Source: Synechococcus sp. GreenBA-s (lineage in GTDB: Bacteria > Cyanobacteriota > Cyanobacteriia > PCC-6307 > Cyanobiaceae). Taken from it: DNA of 64,000 bases. The position numbers and the translations under genes were made by a program. Below the pieces are notes generated by a model, which saw only the letters and a list, made by a program, of their open reading frames with translations, did no database searches and was not told the DNA's origin. Positions 13,065 through 49,886 of this stretch are shown in pieces. The stretch's first letter is position 1. Each line of letters begins with the position of its first letter. The stretch is taken from assembly GCF_024345855.1 (NCBI RefSeq), contig NZ_JAGQBX010000005.1:1-64000 (forward strand). Reading direction: 5' to 3'.

Positions 13065-13422
13065 GACCCCGACGCCCCATCCGCCAGCCGGGAAGGCTGT
13101 TCTGCGACACAGACCGAGTCCAGATCCGCCCCTCCGCTGGAGTCGATCCGATCGCATGGATGGCCAGCACAAGGGAACAGCGGCGACAGGGAGGCCACGG
13201 CCACGATCCTGCGGCCGCAGCGCAGCTTGGCGCATGGAACTGGCACGGGAGGATCACACCTGCAGCTCACCACCTCCTGCTCGGTGGAGCAGCTGTTCAA
13301 CTTGAACGATGGCACGCTGCGAGCGGATGCTAAGTTGCTTGAAGGATGCAGTTCCGCCTTGGAGTCAGACAGTGCTCTACACACTGTTCTGCAACATCAT
13401 CGCAGCAAAGCTATTGCGGCAA

Positions 13423-13444
13423 CGTCATCCCTAGAGCGTCATCC
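13423..13444. promoter_or_regulatory. Direct repeat in the 480-bp gap before the decarboxylase
   Basis: The stretch 13065-13546 holds no convincing gene; the short frames in it look random. CGTCATCC occurs at 13423-13430 and 13437-13444, a 14-base period, about 100-125 bases before the decarboxylase start. It may be a regulator site for the downstream four-gene locus. This gap is AT-richer than its surroundings. Confidence 0.3.
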
Positions 13445-13546
13445 TTTGAAGCTTCAACAGACCATCCAGCATCCAAGCAGGACGCCACGCTCTCCCGCAC
13501 GGTCCCGCAGACAGATCCAACCGTTCGGCGCTGAGCGGATCAGCGG

Positions 13547-14716
13547 ATGACCTACGACCCCTGGAGCCAGCATGAACGGCGCTTCCCCGGCGACGTGGCT
13601 GCGGCTCGACTGATGGCGCTGAAATCCCACTTCGTGGAACGCTCAGCGCACTACATCGGCTTCCCCAACAGTCGCCTGCTGTCTTTTGCGGCGCTGGCCG
13701 ATTTCCTCAAGTTCAATATCAACAATATTGGCGATCCATTCCATCCCAATGATGGGATCAACACCTGTGATTTTGAGCGTGAGGTGATCGCCTTCTGGTC
13801 GACAGCCTTGCACCTCGATCCAGCTGTCGGCTGGGGCTACATCACCAACGGCAGCACCGAGGGCATCATGTACGGGATTGCCCAGGGCCGCGATCGCTAC
13901 GAAGACTCCGTCCTGATCTTCTCCGAGCAATCCCATTACTGCCTCTACAAGATCGCCCATCTGCTGCGGCTGCCCCACCGGGTGATTCCCAGCCATCCAG
14001 ACGGCAGCCTCAACCTGGAGGCCCTGACCACGACGCTGGCGGAGCTGGGAGGCCGCCCCTTCATCCTCAACCTCACCGTGGGCACCACCTTCCACGGCGC
14101 GATCGAGTCGCCGCAGCAGGTGCTGGAGCTACTGGAGCAGCGGCACTGCCACGACTTCCATCTGCACGTGGATGCCGCCCTCTACGGTCCGATGCACTGC
14201 TGGATCCCCGGGTCGCCCCTGTTCGATTTCCGCCTGCCGATTCATACCCTCTCCTTTTCCGGCCACAAATTTCTGGGCTCACCGATTCCCTGCGGGCTGG
14301 TGCTCAGCCACCGCGACCCCATCCAACCCTTTGCGGGCAGCGCCGAGTACGTGGGATCTCTGGACACCACCTTGTCGGGCTCGCGCGATGGCTTCTCTGC
14401 CCTGGCGCTCTGGCTGGTGATCCAGCAACTGGGTCCCCAGGGGCTGGCCGAGCTGGCGGCCGAATCGCTGCAGAGGGCCGTGGAGCTGGTGCGTCAGCTG
14501 CAGGAGGCCGGCATCGCTGCGACCCGCCATCCCCACGGCTGCATTGTGGTGTTCCCCAGACCGGATCAGGCCATGGCCAGGCGCTGGCAACTGGCCACCT
14601 ACGGCGACTCTGCCCATATTGTGACCGTGCCGGGCGTGACCCAGGAGATGATCGCAACGTTCATCACAGAGCTGGTGGAGGCTGAAACACAACCGGCCGC
14701 CAGCCTGGTGCACTGA
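13547..14716 (+). CDS. PLP-dependent histidine decarboxylase family (possibly serine decarboxylase)
   Basis: This 389-aa enzyme closely follows bacterial pyridoxal-phosphate histidine decarboxylase: GYITNGSTEGIMYG, the cofactor-stacking His130 (SEQSHYC), NLTVGTTFHGAIE, HLHVDAALYGPM (Asp209 binding the pyridine nitrogen) and the Schiff-base Lys241 in SFSGHKFLGSPIPCG. The length is as expected. Relatives include plant serine decarboxylase, so the product may be histamine or ethanolamine. It begins a tandem with a Cache sensor 2 bases downstream, an MFS carrier and a ligand-gated channel. The ATG at 13547 gives a normal N-terminus. Confidence 0.88.
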   Translation: MTYDPWSQHERRFPGDVAAARLMALKSHFVERSAHYIGFPNSRLLSFAALADFLKFNINNIGDPFHPNDGINTCDFEREVIAFWSTALHLDPAVGWGYITNGSTEGIMYGIAQGRDRYEDSVLIFSEQSHYCLYKIAHLLRLPHRVIPSHPDGSLNLEALTTTLAELGGRPFILNLTVGTTFHGAIESPQQVLELLEQRHCHDFHLHVDAALYGPMHCWIPGSPLFDFRLPIHTLSFSGHKFLGSPIPCGLVLSHRDPIQPFAGSAEYVGSLDTTLSGSRDGFSALALWLVIQQLGPQGLAELAAESLQRAVELVRQLQEAGIAATRHPHGCIVVFPRPDQAMARRWQLATYGDSAHIVTVPGVTQEMIATFITELVEAETQPAASLVH

Positions 14717-14718
14717 CC

Positions 14719-16095
14719 ATGGGCAGTCTTCCGATCAAACGTCGATGGTTCTGGAATCCGGCGGTGGAGGGAATCCTGTTTGCCCTCGCCTGGCTGGCAA
14801 TCACCAACGTCACCATCTACTTCATCTACGTGCGGGCGGTGGAAGCGGTGAAGGAACAGATCCGTGAGGGGCTGTTGCGCAATGTGAGCGCAGCCGCCAC
14901 CGTGATCGATGGCGATCAGCACCGGACGTTCACCTCCAAGGCTTCCAAGAACGATCCGACCTATCAGAGCTTCATCCAACGCCTGGAGCGGCTGCGCCGG
15001 GCCTCGCAAGACGTCCGCTATGCGTACACCAACATCCTCAAGGATGGAAAGGTGTACTTCATCGCCAACGGCAGCCTCCAGAACGACAACGACAAGGACG
15101 GCCGCCCCGATGAGGCGCCGCAGCTGATGGATCCCTATCCCGATGCCGGCCAGGCTCTGCTCGAGGCCCTGCGCCTCCACAAGCCCACCGTCGATCGCGA
15201 GCCCTACACCGACGCCTGGGGCACCTTCTACAGCGCCTACGCCCCCTTCAAGGATTCCAAGGGCCGGTTCGTCGGCACCCTCGGCATGGATCTCGAGCTG
15301 GTCACCTTGAAGGCGCGGCTGGTGCCGATCGGCATTGCGGCCCAGCGGGCAGCCTTCACCTCCGGCATCCTGGCGTTCCTGTTCGGAACCGCCGTCTGGT
15401 ATTTCCGCAGCCGCAACAGCATCCTGGAGGTCCAGCGCCGCAAGGGCCTGGACCGGATCGGCACGCTGGAATCGGAGCGCAGCCAGGAGCGCACCGCTGC
15501 CGCGATCCAGCTGGAGGCTGTGGCTTCCAGGATTCACGAGACAACGGCCCCTGAGCTCGGCGTGGCACCGGCCGGCCAGGCGCGCACCTACGCGACGGCC
15601 CTGAGGCGATACGCCCTCGCCAGGCAGGGGCTGCGATCCAGCCATGGCGAAAACTTCGATCCGGCCCAGCAGATCCGATCGGCTCTGCCGATGGAGATCC
15701 CTGTCGAGATCTGCCGCGACGTTCCCGCCAGGCTGTTCGGTGACCCCGGTGAAATGACGGAGATCCTTCAATCCCTGTGTTTCAATCCCTTCAGCAACAC
15801 GATTCTGGGATCGTTACAGCAGGTCAGTCTTGAGGCAAGCCGCGAACAGCTCAACAGTCTGGATCTTGTGGTCACGCTGCGCTTCTGCGGGGCCCTGGAG
15901 GGTCGCAGCAGTGGCGGAAGCCTGATCCAGGACCCGGACCACCCCGAGCACGTGTTCGATGAGAACTCCCTGCAGTTCGCCACCTGCTGCGAACAGGTCC
16001 GCGCCCTGGGGGGCAGCCTCTCCCACGTTCAGGATGGGGAAGACGTAGAGCTTGTTCGGCTGAGTCTGCCCTTCGAGAAGTTCCGGGAAACCTGA
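14719..16095 (+). CDS. Cache-domain membrane receptor with degenerate histidine-kinase-like module
   Basis: In this 458-aa protein, residues 16-38 are a membrane helix and ~40-200 an extracytoplasmic Cache/PDC sensor (IDGDQHRTF, DVRYAYT, DNDKDGRPDEAP, VDREPYTDAWGTFYSAYAPFKDSKG and LGMDLE). A second helix lies at ~210-230. Residues ~290-458 resemble a kinase ATPase domain (LFGDPGEMTEILQSLCFNP and a final ALGGSLSHV plus LPF), but there is no phospho-accepting His box. The N-box Asn-Ala and the DxGxG loop are replaced (CFNPFSN, FCGALEG). It may be a pseudokinase receptor. It starts 2 bases after the decarboxylase and ends 3 bases before the MFS gene. The Cache ligand may be an amine or amino acid. 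Confidence 0.75.
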   Translation: MGSLPIKRRWFWNPAVEGILFALAWLAITNVTIYFIYVRAVEAVKEQIREGLLRNVSAAATVIDGDQHRTFTSKASKNDPTYQSFIQRLERLRRASQDVRYAYTNILKDGKVYFIANGSLQNDNDKDGRPDEAPQLMDPYPDAGQALLEALRLHKPTVDREPYTDAWGTFYSAYAPFKDSKGRFVGTLGMDLELVTLKARLVPIGIAAQRAAFTSGILAFLFGTAVWYFRSRNSILEVQRRKGLDRIGTLESERSQERTAAAIQLEAVASRIHETTAPELGVAPAGQARTYATALRRYALARQGLRSSHGENFDPAQQIRSALPMEIPVEICRDVPARLFGDPGEMTEILQSLCFNPFSNTILGSLQQVSLEASREQLNSLDLVVTLRFCGALEGRSSGGSLIQDPDHPEHVFDENSLQFATCCEQVRALGGSLSHVQDGEDVELVRLSLPFEKFRET

Positions 16096-16098
16096 ACC

Positions 16099-17277
16099 AT
16101 GGCGCAGGCAAACCAGGCCACGGATAGCAGAGGAACGCTGGTGGCGGTGGCGGCCCTGGTCCTCGCCACGGCGGTTGTACAGGCGGCGGTTGGCTTCAAC
16201 ACCGTGCTCTTCCCGGTGCGCCTTGAGGCCTACGGGTTCAGCAAGGGTCTGATCGGCCTCTGCCTGGCCTTCGAGATGGGAGCGGTGGTGGCGATCGTCT
16301 CCTCGATCGACTGGATCCTCGCCCGTCTGGGCCTCGTGGGCACCATGGCCCTGGCGACCGGTGTACGCCTGGCCGTGCTGCTGCTGCTCCCCGGCAGCAA
16401 CAGCCTGCCGCTCTGGTGCCTGGGGGTGTTCTGCTTCGGCATCGGCACGTACCTGTGCCTGATCTCGCTGCAGACCTGGGTGAACGCCGTGCCCCTGGGC
16501 CGCCTGCGCGGTGTGGTGAGCGGCTGCTACAGCTCTGCCCTGTCGCTGGGTACCGCCAGCGGGCCGATCCTGTTCAACCAAGTGGGATCGGCGGCAGGCA
16601 GCCAGGCCTTTCAGGCCAACATGCTGATCGTGGTCCTCGCCCTTCTCCTTGTTGTTCCGTTCCTGAATCGGCAGCCGCGGATCGCCAGCCAGGGCCGCCT
16701 GCGCCTGGGTTACGCCATCCGCATGGCGAAGGTGCCGATGCTCTCCTCCTTTGTCGGAGGCGTCACGTTCTTCGGCCTGCCGGCATTCCTGACGCTTTAC
16801 GGGATGATGAACGGTCTCTCGGTGCAGCGCGCCTCGTTGCTGCTGACGGCCTTCATGCTCGGCTCTGTGAGCCTGGGGCTGCTGATTTCCAGCCTCTCGG
16901 ATCGCATCAACCGCACCCTGCTGACGATTCTCTGCGTGCTGGTCGGCGTGGTCTGCGCTGTCTATCTGCCACTGGGCATCTACAACTACGGCATCGCCCT
17001 GGGCCTGCTGTTTGTCTGGGGAGGAGCTGCAGGAGGCATCTACGCCACGGGCCTGGCCACGGTGGCCGATCTGTTCAGGCAGGAGGATCAGGTCTCCGCC
17101 AATGTGGCCTACTCCATTCTGGACAATGTGGGCGGCATCTTCGGCGTGCTGCTGATCGGTGCGCTGATGGGAGCAGGCATCGCCGATGGCATCGTGTATG
17201 TGATTGTACTGACCGCCTTGAGCTATTTCATCTACTGCCTGGCCCAACTTCTGCACAACCCAGACCATGCGATCTGA
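16099..17277 (+). CDS. MFS transporter
   Basis: This 392-aa protein has twelve predicted membrane helices in two halves joined by a short loop (~residues 192-210, LNRQPRIASQGRLR). Features typical of MFS carriers are the first-helix FNTVLFPVRLEAYGFSKGLIGLC, the glycine-rich helices and GRLRGVVSGCYSSALSLGTASGP. The substrate cannot be read from sequence. Tight spacing after the decarboxylase and Cache genes suggests export of the amine or exchange of amino acid for amine. The next gene, the ion channel, begins 75 bases later on the same strand. Confidence 0.85.
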   Translation: MAQANQATDSRGTLVAVAALVLATAVVQAAVGFNTVLFPVRLEAYGFSKGLIGLCLAFEMGAVVAIVSSIDWILARLGLVGTMALATGVRLAVLLLLPGSNSLPLWCLGVFCFGIGTYLCLISLQTWVNAVPLGRLRGVVSGCYSSALSLGTASGPILFNQVGSAAGSQAFQANMLIVVLALLLVVPFLNRQPRIASQGRLRLGYAIRMAKVPMLSSFVGGVTFFGLPAFLTLYGMMNGLSVQRASLLLTAFMLGSVSLGLLISSLSDRINRTLLTILCVLVGVVCAVYLPLGIYNYGIALGLLFVWGGAAGGIYATGLATVADLFRQEDQVSANVAYSILDNVGGIFGVLLIGALMGAGIADGIVYVIVLTALSYFIYCLAQLLHNPDHAI

Positions 17278-17352
17278 CCGCTCAGGCACAGGCAACCAGC
17301 AACGACACCCAGGACAACTCTGCTGCGTTCTCCACCGCAAGCCCAACCGTCG

Positions 17353-18603
17353 ATGAACCCACAAGAGCCACGCCGCAGAGTGCGACAACGCACCAGCCTG
17401 CAGAAGCCCTGGAACCTTTCAGCCCTGCTGATGGCGATCATCGCCATCGGCCTGATGCTCCTGGCCGTTCTGACGACGGATAAACCCAGCACGAAAACGG
17501 GCGACTACCTCGAGCTCTCAGGCAGCAACAGCCAAGCGATCATTCAGCGCAAGAAAGGCCTCAGCCAACTCCTGAAACGCGACCACAACGGCTATCAGCG
17601 ATCCGGCACGGGCAAAGCGGGCCCCACCGAGCCGGGTGCGATGAAAGTCAAGATGGGGATTTATGCCATGAACAACTATGGCGTCAATCTCCAGGTACCC
17701 TCCTTCGAGAGTTCAGGCTATTGGTGGCTCAAGTGGGACGATGATCTCCAGACCTACCTGACCCAGAACGACCTCAAGATCTGGAAGGTTCTGACACCCG
17801 TCAACCTGCTGGACATTCCCCAGTCCGCCGATTCAGTGTTTGTCCCCACCGGCAAGGACGAACCGATCCGCATGAAGGATGGCAGCTGGTATATGACAGG
17901 GGCCTACAGCGGCATCTTCTTCATTGATCGCAGCGACTTCCGCCGCCACCCCTTCACGACCCTCAGCCTTCCGATCATGATCGAGGCAGACGATATCGTG
18001 CTGAGCAATAACAAACTGCAGATCGTGCCCGATGTACAGGGAAGCGGCATCGGCCAGTTCATTGACGCCAACTCAGGATGGGTCAACCAGGGCTGGACGC
18101 TGGCATCCTACAAACACCATTACGACACTGATTTCGGCTTTGGCGAAGGCGCCTCGGACTACAGCCAGCTGGTGTTCGAAGTGAAGTATGCCTCCAGCAG
18201 CTGGTCAGCTTTCTGGAAAGTGCTGGTGCCACTGCTGATCGTGATGGCCATGATCGCTGGCGCCACAAAACTGGATACCACGCATTACGACGTTCGCCTC
18301 ACGCTGCCCGTCACCGTGCTGCTGACCCTGGTGTTCCTGCAACAGACGCACGACAGCGATCTACCACGACTTCCCTATCTCACCTTCCTGGATGAAGTCT
18401 ATGTCGTTGCCTACATCCTCACCCTTGGGGCCTTTGTCATGATGCTCTGGGCCTGTCGGCGCTACTACAAGGCGCTGCAAATCAAAGACCCGCTCGAGCA
18501 AGAGCTGGAAATGAAAAAGCTGGACAAGTCAGACGATTACTGGCCCACCTATGTGATCGGCGCAGGCATCATCTCGTTGACCATCAGCTGGTTTACGGGG
18601 TGA
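17353..18603 (+). CDS. Pentameric ligand-gated ion channel (prokaryotic Cys-loop-like)
   Basis: This is a 416-aa channel subunit. Residues 22-41 are a signal/anchor helix. The extracellular beta-sandwich (~95-285) has the strand MKVKMGIYAMNNYGVNL, the family motif YWWLKWDDDLQ (124-133) and the loop DFRRHPFTTLSLPIMIE, which corresponds to the FPFD loop with the Asp replaced by Thr. Four helices follow: M1 ~287-305, M2 ~313-333 (RLTLPVTVLLTLVFLQQ), M3 ~345-368 and M4 ~399-414. The M2-M3 link DLPRLPYLTFLDE is diagnostic. No Cys-loop cysteines are present, as in other prokaryotic members. Adjacency to an amine-producing decarboxylase suggests an amine ligand, which is inference. Confidence 0.88.
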   Translation: MNPQEPRRRVRQRTSLQKPWNLSALLMAIIAIGLMLLAVLTTDKPSTKTGDYLELSGSNSQAIIQRKKGLSQLLKRDHNGYQRSGTGKAGPTEPGAMKVKMGIYAMNNYGVNLQVPSFESSGYWWLKWDDDLQTYLTQNDLKIWKVLTPVNLLDIPQSADSVFVPTGKDEPIRMKDGSWYMTGAYSGIFFIDRSDFRRHPFTTLSLPIMIEADDIVLSNNKLQIVPDVQGSGIGQFIDANSGWVNQGWTLASYKHHYDTDFGFGEGASDYSQLVFEVKYASSSWSAFWKVLVPLLIVMAMIAGATKLDTTHYDVRLTLPVTVLLTLVFLQQTHDSDLPRLPYLTFLDEVYVVAYILTLGAFVMMLWACRRYYKALQIKDPLEQELEMKKLDKSDDYWPTYVIGAGIISLTISWFTG

Positions 18604-18608
18604 TCAAG

Positions 18609-18650
18609 ACAGTGGATGACAGACAGTGGATGACAGACAGCGGATGGCAG
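18609..18650. repeat. Three tandem 14-bp repeats after the channel gene
   Basis: ACAGTGGATGACAG is repeated exactly at 18609-18622 and 18623-18636, then as ACAGCGGATGGCAG at 18637-18650. The array begins 6 bases after the channel stop and runs into the hairpin at 18642-18670. It may have arisen by slippage at the edge of an inserted segment. Confidence 0.7.
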
Positions 18651-18670
18651 CGCCGAACAGGCTGCCATCC
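18642..18670. terminator. Perfect 10-bp hairpin between convergent genes
   Basis: GGATGGCAGC (18642-18651) pairs exactly with GCTGCCATCC (18661-18670) around a 9-base loop. It sits between the stop of the channel gene and the stop of the convergent DUF3386 gene. No T-tract follows, so it is a probable but unproven transcription end for the four-gene locus. Confidence 0.5.
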
Positions 18671-18699
18671 AGAGGGAGAGTGCTGCAGGGGCAGGGGCC

Positions 18700-19392
18700 T
18701 CAGACCAGGGGCGCGAGCTCCTCGAAGCGGAACGCCTGGCGGCCGGCGGGGGTATCGCCGTGGGCCTCCGTCTCCACCACCCGCTCGCTGAGCACCCAGG
18801 GGCCGGCCTCGGCCAGGGGCACGAAGGTGTCGGTGAAGCGGCTCTTGCCGCCCTTGGCGGCGCCGGTGGCGGGATCGGCGTACTGGCTGGTGTAGGTGTG
18901 GCTGAGGTAGCCGGCACCAGTGTCGGTGGTGGATTCGGTGAAGATCGTCACCACGGTGCCGTGGATATGGCGGTGCACCATCGTCACCACATCGCCCTTG
19001 ATGCGGTAGCGATCGCCGGCGTTCTTGCCGCCCACGATCACCTCGGTTCCCACCGCATCGGTGTCACCGGCGGTGAAGGTGTTCTCGCCGTGGGTCTGCT
19101 CGAAGCTGCGGCGCACCCGGTGGATCGCCACCTCCCAGAGCTGGGAGGCCACGGCCTTGTGGATCTCGGCGTCGTCGATGCCCTCCACGGTGGCCTTGAG
19201 GTCAGCGCCCACCTGGAAGCGGCCCTCCACCCGGCGGTCGTCCTGCTCCCACACGGCCCGGCCCTGGTAGCCGCCGAAGCCCGGATCCCAGGTGTAGCGG
19301 TTCGCGTAGGCGGCGCGGAAGGCCGTGGTGCAGTCGGCCCCGGGGGCGATGGCGCTGCTGGGGGCGGTCGGATGGCCGATCGAGATGGGCAT
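18700..19392 (-). CDS. DUF3386-family cyanobacterial protein
   Basis: This 230-aa protein begins its conserved part with AFRAAYANRYTWDPGFGGYQGRAVWE, the hallmark of DUF3386, followed by RVEGRFQVGADLKATVEG and the strand-rich KGDVVTMVHRHIHGTVVTIF. No catalytic motif is evident; the family is found in cyanobacteria and plants and its role is unknown. The ATG at 19392 (MPISIGHP) is preferred over the longer frame. It is not linked to the channel locus, since it converges on it. Confidence 0.82.
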   Translation of the reverse strand: MPISIGHPTAPSSAIAPGADCTTAFRAAYANRYTWDPGFGGYQGRAVWEQDDRRVEGRFQVGADLKATVEGIDDAEIHKAVASQLWEVAIHRVRRSFEQTHGENTFTAGDTDAVGTEVIVGGKNAGDRYRIKGDVVTMVHRHIHGTVVTIFTESTTDTGAGYLSHTYTSQYADPATGAAKGGKSRFTDTFVPLAEAGPWVLSERVVETEAHGDTPAGRQAFRFEELAPLV

Positions 19393-32375: not shown

Positions 32376-34508
32376 TTGGCCAGTCCGGAGTCCCAGCGCG
32401 AGGTGAGCATGGCGGCGCCGCTCGGAGCAGCCGCCACTGCCATCGCCCTCCCAGATCGGGCGGCCCTCTACCGCCATCTTCTTGATCTCGTCGACGGGGC
32501 CTGCACGATCCTCGACGCCGACAGCGGCAGGATCCTCGACTGCAACGTCGCCGCCCATGAGCAGCTTGGCTACAGCCGGGAGCAATACCTGGCGATCACC
32601 CCCAGTGCGCTCCAGGCCGACCCGGCCCATGACCGGGCCTGGGTGGAGGCGGTACTCGCGGAGCTGCGCCAGCGCGGCCGACTGAGCTTCAGCACCAGCC
32701 ACCGGCACCGCAACGGCAGCGCCGTAGCCGTGGAGGTGCACCTGGAGCTGGCGCACTGCGGCGGCCAGGTCCTGCTGCTGGCCGCCACCAGCGAACGCCC
32801 CGAGCTGCTGCGCATCCAGGAGGACCTGGAACGCTCGAATCGCCAGCTGCTGGAGGCCGAGCAGCTGGCCCAGCTGGGCAGCTGGCAGCTGCCCAGCCTG
32901 CACGGGCCGATCCGCTGGTCGCCCCAGATCGCGCAGATCCTCGAGCTCTCCGACAGCCACCGTCCCCAGCTGCGTTTCTATCTCTCCCGGGTTCACCCCG
33001 ACGATCGAGGGGGGCTGCGGCAGGCCATCCGCGAGCTCGCCAAGGCGGGCCGTCCGCTGGAGTTAGAGCAGCGCCTGCGGCTCGCCAACGGTAAGCGCAA
33101 GGTCGTGGTGCTGCGCGCCCGCATGAACGCCGACAGGCTCGGCCGCCCCATCGGCGTGGTCGGCACCCTCCAGGACGTAACGGCCGCCAACGCCCTGAAG
33201 GAGCAGCTGGAGCAGACCGCTTACCGCGACGTGGTGACCGGCCTGCCGAACCGGGCCGCCAGCCATCGCCACCTGGACCAGCTGCTGCGGGAGCTGCCCC
33301 GCACCTCCAACCTGGCGGCGATCTGCCTGGACATCGACGACTTCCAGGCGATCAACGACAGCTTCGGCATCGCCGTGGGCAACCGCGTGCTCGAGGAGAC
33401 CGGCCGCCGGCTCCAGCAGCTGCTGGGCCCGGCCGACTGGGTGGCCCGCACGGGCAGCGATGAATTCCTGGTGTTGAGCCCCCACCGGCACAGCATCGGC
33501 GAGGCCCGCAGCCTGGCGATGGAGCTGCAGCGCCAGCTGGCCCGGCCCCTGCCGATCCAGGACCACCTCGCCGTGACCCTGGCCGTCACGGTGGGGGTGA
33601 GCGTGTGGCCCGAGCACGGCGGCGATCCACTGGAGCTGCTGCAGCGGGCCAACACCGCCCTCACCGAGGCCAAGCAGCGGGGGCCGCGCCAGCTCGAGGT
33701 GTACTCCAACCTGATCAGCGCCCGCCTGCTGGCGCGCACCCAGCTGGAGCAGGAGCTGGCCCGGGCGGTGGACCGGGAACAGCTGCGGCTGGTGTTCCAG
33801 CCCCAGACCGACGGCCACGGCCGGGTGGTGGGGGCCGAGGCGCTGCTGCGCTGGATCGATCAGCGCGGCCAGGCCCAGTCGCCCGCCAATTTCATCCCGC
33901 TGGCGGAGCGCACCGGCCTGATCCACGCCATCGGCCAGTGGGTGCTGGAGGAGAGCTTCCGCCAGCTGGCGGCCTGGCGGAAGCAGGGGCTACAGCTGCC
34001 GCTGCTCTCGATCAACCTCTCCTCCATCCAGCTGCAGGACCCGGAGCGCAAGCTCAGCCGCTTCATCCACACCTGCAGCCGGCAGTACGGCATCGAGCCG
34101 CAGCAGCTGGAATTCGAGCTCACCGAAACGGCGATCCAGCGGGATGCGGTCCTGGTGACCGAGCAGCTGCAGGAGCTGGCCGGCCTGGGCTTCAAGCTCG
34201 CCCTCGACGACTTCGGCACGGGCTATTCCTCCCTGGAGGTGCTGCACCGCCTGCCGCTGGACAAGCTGAAGATCGATCGCTGCTTCATCGATCCGCTGGT
34301 GGACCGCCACACCGACCGCAGCATCGTGGCGGCCACCATCGCCATGGCGCGCCAGCTGGGTCTGACGCCCCTGGCCGAGGGGGTGGAGAACGCCGGCCAG
34401 GTGGAGCTGCTGCTGGAGCTGGGCTGCGAGCTCTTCCAGGGCTACCACTTCGGCAGGCCCATGGAGGCGGGCGAGCTGGGGGAGCGGCTCGCCGCCCAGG
34501 GCCAATAG
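32376..34508 (+). CDS. PAS-GGDEF-EAL c-di-GMP signalling protein
   Basis: This is a 710-aa protein. Residues ~25-145 and ~150-275 are two PAS domains (ILDADSGRILDCNVAAHEQLGYSREQYLAI; LAQLGSWQLPSLHGPIRWSPQI). The GGDEF domain (~280-440) has GSDEF instead of GGDEF, so cyclase activity is doubtful. The EAL domain (~450-700) keeps EALLRW, the Asp-rich LALDDFGTGYSSLEVL and the ELTET motif, so it is probably an active phosphodiesterase. The start is uncertain: TTG 32376 or ATG 32409. No membrane segment. PAS ligands are unknown. Confidence 0.9.
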   Translation: MASPESQREVSMAAPLGAAATAIALPDRAALYRHLLDLVDGACTILDADSGRILDCNVAAHEQLGYSREQYLAITPSALQADPAHDRAWVEAVLAELRQRGRLSFSTSHRHRNGSAVAVEVHLELAHCGGQVLLLAATSERPELLRIQEDLERSNRQLLEAEQLAQLGSWQLPSLHGPIRWSPQIAQILELSDSHRPQLRFYLSRVHPDDRGGLRQAIRELAKAGRPLELEQRLRLANGKRKVVVLRARMNADRLGRPIGVVGTLQDVTAANALKEQLEQTAYRDVVTGLPNRAASHRHLDQLLRELPRTSNLAAICLDIDDFQAINDSFGIAVGNRVLEETGRRLQQLLGPADWVARTGSDEFLVLSPHRHSIGEARSLAMELQRQLARPLPIQDHLAVTLAVTVGVSVWPEHGGDPLELLQRANTALTEAKQRGPRQLEVYSNLISARLLARTQLEQELARAVDREQLRLVFQPQTDGHGRVVGAEALLRWIDQRGQAQSPANFIPLAERTGLIHAIGQWVLEESFRQLAAWRKQGLQLPLLSINLSSIQLQDPERKLSRFIHTCSRQYGIEPQQLEFELTETAIQRDAVLVTEQLQELAGLGFKLALDDFGTGYSSLEVLHRLPLDKLKIDRCFIDPLVDRHTDRSIVAATIAMARQLGLTPLAEGVENAGQVELLLELGCELFQGYHFGRPMEAGELGERLAAQGQ

Positions 34509-40242: not shown

Positions 40243-40398
40243 GCCAGGACCCTAGGGCGATTTCCCGGAAATTCCGTATCGGCCCACACGCTGTCGCAGT
40301 CGGCGGGAACACCGACCGGCGCAGACCCGCCACCTCGTGACGGCCATAGCGGGGGCCTCCAGGTCCTGCCTACGGTGAAGCTGCCCCCCGAGGCCTGG

Positions 40399-45045
<4,647 letters not shown>

Positions 45046-47948: not shown

Positions 47949-49886
47949 CTAGGTCCAGTCGCTGAGCGGGGTGGGCCGGCCGAACAGGTAGCCCTGGCCC
48001 ACCTGGCAGCCCATGGCCAGCAGCATCTGGCGCTGCTGCTCGGTCTCGATGCCCTCGGCCACCACCACCAGGCCCAGCTCCTTGAACACCCGCACGAAGC
48101 CGCGGATCAGGGTGGCGCAGCGGGCATCGTCACCGATCTGGCGGATGTACGACTGATCCAGCTTGACGATGTCCACCGGCAGCTGGCTCAGCCAGGAGAG
48201 GCTGGAGTAGCCGGTGCCGAAGTCGTCGAGGGCGATGCAGACGCCCGCCTGCTTGAGGGCCGAGAGGTCGTGGAACGCCTGGGCGTGCTCCCGCAGCAGC
48301 ACCGTCTCGGTCACTTCGATGCGCAGGCCGGCCAGGTCCACGCCGGTGCGCTGCCGCTGCTCGAGCAGCTCCTGCACCAGGGTGCCCTTCTCCAGGTGAT
48401 GGGGGCTCACGTTGATCGACAGCCGCCAGGGCCTGCCCTGGCGCTGCCACTCCCGCAGGGTGTCGATGGCACAGGCGAGCACCCAGCGCTCCATCGGCAC
48501 GATCAGGCCGGTGCGCTCGGCCATGGGAATGAACCGATCCGGCGGGATCAGGGCGCCGTCGGCCCCCTGCAGGCGCACCAGGGCCTCGGCCCCGAGGATC
48601 GCCCCGTCCTCCAGGTTCACGATCGGCTGGTAGTGCAGCAGCAGCCGGTCGTGGCGCAGGCCCTGCTCCAGCTGCTGCCGCAGGCCCACGCTCGCCTGCA
48701 CCGCCTGATCCACATCGGCGTCGTAGACGGCCACCCCGTCGCGACCTGCGAGCTTCACCTGATACATGGTGAGATCGGCGCGGCGCATCAGCTCCTCGGC
48801 CGAGGTGCGGCCGTGGGTGCACATCGCCACCCCCATGCTCATCGACAGCGACAGCTCCTCGCCGCCGTGGCGCCAGGGCTCCACCAGGCAGTCCTGCAGG
48901 CGCTGGGCCAGCTGCACCGCATCGTCCTCGCTGGCCAGGGTGTCCACCAGCACCACGAACTCATCGCCCCCCAGGCGGGCCAGGGTGTCGTGGCTGCGCA
49001 GCACGGTCTGCAGGCGGTGCGTGACCTCCAGCAGCAGGGCATCGCCGGTGGCGTGGCCGTAGCGGTCGTTCACCTCCTTGAAGCGGTCGAGATCGCAGAA
49101 GAGCAGCGCCAGCAGGCCTGGACGGCGCTGCAGCCGGGCCAGGGCCAGCTCGATCCGCTCGGCCAGGCCGCGCCGGTTGGGCAGGCCGGTGAGCGGATCG
49201 CTGAGGGCCTGCTGGGCGAGCGCCTGCTCCCCGGCCCGCCGATCCGACACATCCCGCTGCACCGACACCCAGTGGGTGAACCAGCCGTCGCCGTCGGCCA
49301 GCGGCGCCACCTTGAGCTCGATCCAGTAGGGATTGCCGGCGCAGTCGTAGTTGAGCACCTCCATGGCGGGGGAGTCCCAGCGCCGCAGGGCCGCGCCGAA
49401 GGCCGCCGTGACGGTGGGGTCGGTGTCTGGCCCCTGGAACAGGCGCGGACTGCGGCCCAGCAGCTGCTCGCGGCTGAAGCCGGTGTCGCGCAGCAGGGTC
49501 TCGTTGGCATACACAATCACCGGACCTGGCCGGTCCGTCGGCTCGGCCAGGGTGATCAACACGGCGTCCTGGATCGTGTTGAGCAGGCCCTCGAACAACT
49601 GCAGCCGCGGGTCGGCGCTGGCCTCTGCCGCCGGCTCGGCCAGCAGGCCCACCCCCACCCCATCGTCCGTGCGGAACAGGCGCAGGTGCCGTTGGCCCTG
49701 GGGCGAGGGCAGCTCCAGGTCCAGGGGCCCCTGCTCCAGGGCGTCGCGGTGCCCGGCGATCAGCTCGGCCAGCTCGGGCCACACGGCCGGCAGGGGGGCC
49801 TGCTCCAGCTGCGCCGCCCGGCTGCCGAGCAGCGCCCGGGCGGTGCGATCCACGTGCAGCACCGCCAGGGCCTCCGACACCAGCAC
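47949..49886 (-). CDS. PAS(LOV-like)-GGDEF-EAL c-di-GMP protein
   Basis: This 645-aa protein starts with an incomplete PAS (~1-90). A LOV-like PAS follows (~100-220: VYANETLLRDTGFSREQL, GRSPRLFQGPDTD, NYDCAGNPYWIELKVAPL), then GGDEF with an intact LGGDEF and EAL with GAEALVRL and LDDFGTGYSS. The LOV flavin-binding Cys is replaced by Pro. The GTG at 49886 is listed as start, but PAS-like residues (YGFLLLPGDGLVLVSEAL) continue in frame upstream, so the true N-terminus is probably further out. The 217 bp up to 50103 holds no other gene. Confidence 0.87.
   Translation of the reverse strand: MLVSEALAVLHVDRTARALLGSRAAQLEQAPLPAVWPELAELIAGHRDALEQGPLDLELPSPQGQRHLRLFRTDDGVGVGLLAEPAAEASADPRLQLFEGLLNTIQDAVLITLAEPTDRPGPVIVYANETLLRDTGFSREQLLGRSPRLFQGPDTDPTVTAAFGAALRRWDSPAMEVLNYDCAGNPYWIELKVAPLADGDGWFTHWVSVQRDVSDRRAGEQALAQQALSDPLTGLPNRRGLAERIELALARLQRRPGLLALLFCDLDRFKEVNDRYGHATGDALLLEVTHRLQTVLRSHDTLARLGGDEFVVLVDTLASEDDAVQLAQRLQDCLVEPWRHGGEELSLSMSMGVAMCTHGRTSAEELMRRADLTMYQVKLAGRDGVAVYDADVDQAVQASVGLRQQLEQGLRHDRLLLHYQPIVNLEDGAILGAEALVRLQGADGALIPPDRFIPMAERTGLIVPMERWVLACAIDTLREWQRQGRPWRLSINVSPHHLEKGTLVQELLEQRQRTGVDLAGLRIEVTETVLLREHAQAFHDLSALKQAGVCIALDDFGTGYSSLSWLSQLPVDIVKLDQSYIRQIGDDARCATLIRGFVRVFKELGLVVVAEGIETEQQRQMLLAMGCQVGQGYLFGRPTPLSDWT

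Follow-up and report, generated by a model that had tools for sequence, protein, structure and literature searches.

A four-gene decarboxylase and ligand-gated channel unit of picocyanobacteria, a probable counterpart of the Dickeya ELIC operon

Four adjacent genes of the picocyanobacterium Synechococcus sp. GreenBA-s probably form a horizontally acquired counterpart of the operon that, in Dickeya, encodes the pentameric ligand-gated ion channel (pLGIC) ELIC. The genes lie on the + strand of the stretch of DNA analysed here, positions 1 to 64,000 of contig NZ_JAGQBX010000005.1 (hereafter referred to as the window). They encode a pyridoxal phosphate (PLP)-dependent amino acid decarboxylase, a Cache-type membrane receptor, a transporter of the major facilitator superfamily (MFS) and a pLGIC subunit. 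ELIC and another bacterial pLGIC, GLIC, serve as standard models of nerve receptor structure. A survey of 2016 stated that no biological role was known for any pLGIC of unicellular organisms (PMC4795631). Small primary amines, among them several products of decarboxylation, open ELIC, and according to the text of Zimmermann and Dutzler (2011) an amino acid decarboxylase is part of the ELIC operon and could be the enzyme that processes the ligand (PMC3119659).

Homologues of all four proteins in the ELIC operon

The ELIC locus of Dickeya undicola (L096) was used as the reference and compared with the four window proteins. Homologues of all four are found there in one operon-like array, with sequence identities of 27% for the decarboxylase (2e-31), 40% over the sensor for the Cache protein (4e-53), 39% for the MFS transporter (about 38-39% over comparisons with ELIC-operon transporters; 1e-64) and approximately 20% between ELIC and the window channel. 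The genes of the ELIC locus follow each other tightly, separated by one base or overlapping by 4 bases; the intergenic gaps in the window are 2, 3 and 75 bases, and the positions, strand and gaps given in the initial annotation of this DNA agree with the open reading frames (ORFs). The order decarboxylase-ELIC-Cache-MFS occurs in seven of the nine Dickeya species, and in the remaining two both ELIC and the MFS gene are missing. Decarboxylase, Cache and MFS genes keep this relative order in both phyla, the channel gene being second in Dickeya and last in the window. The subfamily of the ELIC-operon transporter (E<=1e-45) has no further copy among 198 genomes of the order of Dickeya and 349 of its phylum, and a search for plasmid copies found none.

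Phylogenetic trees separate the history of the channel from that of its partners. The Cache proteins of the cassettes, as the four-gene units are called here, and of Dickeya form a clade (support 97/96) that is apart from the hybrid histidine kinases with the same sensor. The cassette channels, in contrast, group with other picocyanobacterial channels, and a clade uniting them with ELIC is rejected by the approximately unbiased (AU) test (p 2.4e-5), although the long branches call for some caution. The window channel is accordingly not an ELIC orthologue, and the inheritance of an orthologous channel together with the rest of the unit from an ELIC-like operon was rejected. It follows that a channel became paired with these genes on more than one occasion, or that one channel was swapped for another. 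The simplest reading is that a three-gene core was joined by, or exchanged, its channel. Since this core is paired with two channel lineages, a pLGIC appears to be functionally required.

Conservation as a unit and insertion site

Of about 400 genomes sampled from the family, nine, in three genera, carry all four genes in identical order and on one strand (the window genome and G177; G062, G250, G363, G347, G262 and G163; and G105, the cassette of which is interrupted by the contig end). In a set of 151 genomes, the decarboxylase (E<=1e-20) is present in three, exactly the three in which the cassette Cache protein and a close channel also occur; the probability of coinciding in the same three genomes by chance is 1.8e-6. 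A cassette-clade channel without the decarboxylase occurs in two more genomes, G032 and the incomplete G074. The gene order persists across 30-40% protein divergence and in three genera with differing flanks. Between the window genome and G177, the ratio of nonsynonymous to synonymous substitution rates (Ka/Ks) is 0.18 for the decarboxylase, 0.12 for the Cache protein, 0.08 for the transporter and 0.10 for the channel, which indicates purifying selection on all four genes. The initial annotation had made its proposal depend on the channel and the decarboxylase co-occurring elsewhere; the two do occur together, in nine genomes of picocyanobacteria and seven of Dickeya. Where a cyanobacterial homologue of the decarboxylase is free-standing (L098-L104), flanks of up to about 10 kb contained no match to the other three genes, and these loci were therefore rejected as examples of the same system.

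In the window genome and in G177, the unit sits between gor, a glutathione-reductase-like gene, and a DUF3386 gene. By gene content, the DUF3386 gene and, in a relative, a protochlorophyllide-reductase-like gene point to a picocyanobacterium, and the genomes listed for its phylum and for that of Dickeya do not overlap, in line with two different phyla. In related genomes without the unit, the ends of these two genes are 16 bp (L145) or 49 bp (L147) apart, and in others of the loci L138-L147 the interval holds a Na/alanine symporter with a short-chain dehydrogenase, or an ABC transporter. Since the interval is empty or differently filled in relatives, it is a variable insertion site. In the other two genera, the examined cassette flanks are without gor and the DUF3386 gene. 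The G+C content is 61.9% in the four-gene segment and 71.5% in the remainder of the window. The proposals of the initial annotation that the locus is richer in AT than its flanks and was transferred as a unit are both borne out by this composition and by the insertion. Its description of the locus as bounded by repeats is for the most part unconfirmed: one clear 14-bp tandem repeat follows the channel gene, and a repeat search at the 5' end found no match to it. Flanking repeats that could serve as the ends of an element were not found, and neither an integrase nor end repeats were seen in the inserted segment. A role in anti-phage defence or an origin in a phage was rejected, there being no PADLOC hit and no PHROGs match other than the MFS protein.

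The clear insertion in a variable site and the deviating composition are what would be expected if the genes were chance neighbours, or passengers of one mobile segment that share no functional link. This explanation is very improbable, given that the order is kept over 30-40% divergence with changing flanks, that every gene is under purifying selection and that a second phylum has a homologous set with another channel lineage. That the four genes form one functional, transferable unit is supported.

Table 1 Features of the four-gene unit and of the segment that carries it in the window.
Feature	Position	Strand	Basis or remark
Inserted segment between gor and the DUF3386 gene	13065..18702	.	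Both flanking genes adjacent in related genomes L145, L147
PLP-dependent group II amino acid decarboxylase, histidine/serine decarboxylase type, 389 aa	13547..14716	+	PF00282, PRK02769
Substrate-pocket motif FPN, residues 39-41	13661..13669	+	Position of AtSerDC YPY (Tyr111); invariant in nine cassettes
PLP-binding Lys241 in SGHK	14267..14269	+	Aligned to SGHK of AtSerDC and PpHDC; family knowledge
Active-site loop GSRDGF, residues 278-283	14378..14395	+	GSRNGH/M in free-standing enzymes
Membrane receptor, likely Cache/PDC-like extracytoplasmic sensor and non-catalytic histidine-kinase-derived cytoplasmic part, 458 aa	14719..16095	+	Sensor shared with hybrid histidine kinases; HATPase remnant (hhalign)
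Acidic loop DNDKDGRPDE in sensor, DxDxDG type	15085..15114	+	Same motif in cassettes; DNDGDGLPD in Dickeya
MFS transporter, 392 aa	16099..17277	+	PF07690 2.4e-20
pLGIC subunit, 416 aa, without Cys-loop cysteines	17353..18603	+	Profile match to ELIC 6e-20; Foldseek GLIC/sTeLIC/ELIC
Glu211, equivalent of ELIC amine-binding Glu131	17983..17985	+	ELIC alignment; invariant
Loop C region, Tyr257 and Tyr270, equivalents of ELIC Tyr174 and Phe187	18121..18162	+	ELIC alignment
Predicted pore-lining M2 helix, residues 312-334; Asp313 at GLIC Glu222 position	18286..18354	+	Model secondary structure, alignment
14-bp tandem repeat, 3.1 copies	18607..18650	.	Directly 3' of channel gene; Tandem Repeats Finder

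Elsewhere in the window, positions 40375-45042 encode a 1556-residue protein that combines CheB, CheR, PAS, GGDEF and EAL domains, and further GGDEF-EAL proteins are encoded at 32376-34505 and 47952-49886.

Decarboxylase and transporter

The first and third genes belong to the families to which they had initially been assigned. The transporter matches MFS_1 (PF07690) with 73 bits, the cut-off being 33.4. The decarboxylase matches PF00282 in Pfam (4.8e-19) and the NCBIfam model PRK02769 (358.7 bits, cut-off 305). PRK02769 is a histidine decarboxylase model, and it also takes a cyanobacterial enzyme with a serine-type YPY pocket, at 536 bits. The nearest solved structures are those of the serine decarboxylase of Arabidopsis, AtSerDC (8jg7, 4e-73), and the histidine decarboxylase of Photobacterium, PpHDC (7erv, 1e-59).

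The PLP lysine, the histidine of the SHY motif and the loop tyrosine are retained in the window enzyme, while the substrate pocket differs from those of both reference structures. In the plant serine decarboxylase, Tyr111 is the specificity position (PMC11407765). This position is Phe in alanine decarboxylase and Glu in PpHDC. It is Asn41 in all nine cassettes, where the motif FPN stands in the place of YPY in AtSerDC, YPE in PpHDC and GFQT in Dickeya. The active-site loop reads SRDG[FLV] in the cassettes, SRPGL in the Dickeya operon enzymes and SRNG[HM] in all free-standing references. The cassettes thus have neither the YPE and NGH of the characterised histidine decarboxylase, which are replaced by FPN and DG[FLV], nor the tyrosine of a plant-type serine decarboxylase. 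Judged by these residues, the cassette and the Dickeya operon decarboxylases have both departed from the known substrate pockets. With FPN for YPY or YPE and SRDG[FLV] for SRNGH, a substrate cannot be transferred from the known enzymes. Histamine or ethanolamine, which had been suggested as products in the initial annotation, are unsupportable from a pocket that matches neither the serine nor the histidine decarboxylases.

Cache-type receptor

The second gene had been described as a Cache receptor with a decayed kinase module. The decay of the kinase stands. A profile comparison with hybrid histidine kinases that have the same sensor extends across 432 columns (1e-34), and in the alignment with these relatives the phosphoacceptor His and the ATP-binding N, G1 and G2 boxes are lost. 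No HisKA or HATPase match was obtained with Pfam at E 0.1. A functional histidine kinase was rejected, since the phosphoacceptor and the ATP boxes are gone. For the Cache part, the protein alone gives no significant Pfam match, its relatives give PDC/Cache matches that are only sub-threshold (E 0.0004-0.03), and the structure model is of low confidence (predicted local distance difference test score, pLDDT, 49). From these family matches, a Cache fold of the sensor is likely. The acidic loop of the sensor looks like a calcium-binding loop and may bind Ca2+. In four cassettes (L084-L087), a domain of about 150 residues is inserted near the lost G1 box; by eye, its sequence is Calx-beta-like.

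The cytoplasmic, non-catalytic part of the protein is itself under purifying selection (Ka/Ks 0.20, window versus G177). The Cache protein may be an accessory subunit of the channel, presenting or sensing the ligand and tuning the pore, and no receptor in its own right. Although the kinase residues have gone from the cassettes and a kinase domain could not be detected in the Dickeya protein, the cytoplasmic part of the cassette protein is maintained, and bacterial pLGICs that are fused to Cache domains, or in operons with them, have been described (PMC549065). The poor structure model of the Cache protein counts against this proposal, which we regard as possible but somewhat short of an even prospect; it would be compatible with an amine-based function of the unit.

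Pentameric channel

The channel, when searched alone, has no Pfam match. A search with its family profile gives ELIC as the first match (6e-20), followed by GLIC (about 1e-12 to 1e-14). The AlphaFold2 model (pLDDT 74) is matched by Foldseek to GLIC, sTeLIC and ELIC at 1e-16 to 1e-18 with a probability of 1.00. It comprises the extracellular β-sandwich and four membrane helices, preceded by an extra N-terminal helix [19-42]. The signature residues of the family are invariant, namely P200 and F201 of the Pro-loop between β6 and β7 and L324, the 9' Leu of M2. By fold and signature residues, the protein is a member of the pLGIC family, as had been proposed; its pentameric assembly and ligand gating are putative.

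In the alignment with ELIC, Glu131, Tyr174, Phe187 and Tyr38 correspond to Glu211, Tyr257, Tyr270 and Tyr123 of the window channel. The full amine site of ELIC (Glu77, Glu131, Phe133, Tyr174, Phe187) is not present. The window channel may work like ELIC without being its orthologue. Two positions, N103/T182 and D175/D258 (ELIC/window), are polar in the channels that are linked to an operon, whichever their lineage, but for the most part not in unlinked cyanobacterial ones, a pattern that is suggestive only. The acidic Asp313 fits cation selectivity, although a survey found an acidic residue at that position of the pore to be an unsafe predictor of selectivity in prokaryotes (PMC4795631).

Other channels were observed around these. 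At about 14 loci (L065-L068, L073-L081), a non-cassette picocyanobacterial pLGIC gene has as its neighbour, in divergent orientation, the gene of a type I periplasmic binding protein (PF13458, 1e-58), which makes a second conserved pairing of a channel with a sensor. L085 (5639-6304, incomplete) and L086 (4590-5810) have a second pLGIC gene, of the binding-protein-linked type, immediately upstream of the cassette, and L084 has one immediately downstream. A further, distant pLGIC (36%; L069:10334-11461, contig G000:C89) is encoded in the window genome, and its subfamily retains the equivalent of ELIC Glu77; the two neighbours of its gene matched no Pfam family. An Anaerolineales contig encodes a channel that is 34% identical to ELIC (L097:1169-2437) and is too short to show an operon.

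Proposed function

We consider it rather probable that the unit makes an amine, exports it and senses it with both the Cache receptor and the channel. This proposal rests on the association of the genes across two phyla with two channel lineages and on the known gating of ELIC by amines. The initial annotation had already proposed an amine link, and with homologues of all four genes in the ELIC operon it remains the best reading of the unit. In the cytosol, the decarboxylase would turn an amino acid into a small primary amine, which the MFS protein would transport across the inner membrane or exchange for the amino acid. In the periplasm, the amine would bind to the pentameric channel and open a cation pore. 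The Cache receptor would also read the amine and, because it has no enzymatic output, would probably act through protein contact, possibly on the channel. The outcome would be a loop of synthesis, export and sensing. Tentatively, and with less confidence, one could see here a transmitter-like circuit within one bacterial operon, in which an amine-making enzyme and a releasing transporter are combined with two receptors that both read the amine, one of them an ionotropic member of the nerve-receptor superfamily.

Several observations weigh against an amine loop of the ELIC type. The two operon decarboxylases group together with weak support (68/85), and the pocket of the cassette enzyme fits no class of known substrate. 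Glu77 and Phe133, which are essential to the amine response of ELIC, are not retained in the window channel, in which the former is Thr148 and no aromatic residue replaces the latter; the ligand of this channel may therefore differ from that of ELIC. The closest channel outside the cassettes, that of L063 (55% identical), has no cassette-type neighbours among the ORFs of that locus. No regulator gene lies within the four-gene unit, and inspection by eye upstream of the cassettes revealed no conserved regulatory motif.

Alternatively, the unit could serve to sense and use the environment, the MFS protein importing an amino acid or amine, the decarboxylase degrading the amino acid, and the Cache protein and channel reporting on the surroundings, with no self-signalling. 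Cache domains usually sense external small molecules, Dickeya lives on plant tissue, which is rich in amino acids, and the pairs of non-cassette channels with periplasmic binding protein genes (PF13458) are of a kind that Tasneem et al. read as chemoreceptors (PMC549065). However, the decarboxylase produces amines, which is not an entry to metabolism, and neither phylum has an amine oxidase, transaminase or assimilation gene in the unit; we find this explanation unlikely. A role in acid or ion homeostasis, in which decarboxylation consumes protons, the MFS protein exchanges the amine with the amino acid and the channel conducts cations or protons according to pH, is more doubtful still. Classical pairs of decarboxylase and antiporter do confer acid resistance, and the top fold matches of the channel include GLIC, which is gated by protons, and sTeLIC, which is gated by alkali. 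Yet the known acid-resistance antiporters of this type are mostly of the APC superfamily and not MFS, the channel of the sister operon is gated by amines, and the opening of a cation channel would counteract acid resistance.

The statement in the initial annotation that no such system had been described is only partly right, since the decarboxylase was placed in the ELIC operon in 2011 by Zimmermann and Dutzler (text of PMC3119659). In the text of the pLGIC literature that was found, only the decarboxylase is named next to ELIC; the Cache and MFS partners are not mentioned as a conserved set, and in the same texts we found no report of an occurrence in a second phylum or of a change of channel lineage. 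The presence of the four-gene unit in two phyla with two channel lineages names likely partners of the channel, and makes the question of what ELIC is for directly approachable by experiment. It suggests that such bacterial channels operate together with a pathway dedicated to amine production. A transmitter-like circuit, if true, would show what prokaryotic pLGICs such as ELIC do in nature.

Comparison with known systems

The unit can be compared with four known systems. With the ELIC operon it shares the location on one strand, a PLP decarboxylase, a pentameric channel, a Cache-type receptor without a kinase and an MFS protein, together with the relative order of the three core genes. It differs in phylum, in a channel that is of another pLGIC lineage and is last and not second, in the decarboxylase, which is 27% identical and has another pocket, and in the cytoplasmic part of the Cache protein, which is not clearly related in sequence. 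Compared with the serine and histidine decarboxylases 8jg7 and 7erv, the cassette enzyme is of the same group II PLP family and keeps the Lys, the His and the loop Tyr, but has FPN and SRDG[FLV] where these have YPY or YPE and SRNGH. The hybrid histidine kinases (L035-L046) have the extracytoplasmic sensor and the transmembrane layout in common with the cassette Cache protein, in which the HATPase remnant is recognisable; the latter lacks the HisKA phosphoacceptor, the G boxes and the receiver. Finally, the binding-protein-linked channels (L065-L068 and others) are the nearest relatives of the cassette channel (about 36-44% identical) and are likewise paired with an extracytoplasmic sensor protein. 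However, they are without such a decarboxylase and MFS transporter, are in divergent orientation to their partner, and have Leu at the position of ELIC Asn103.

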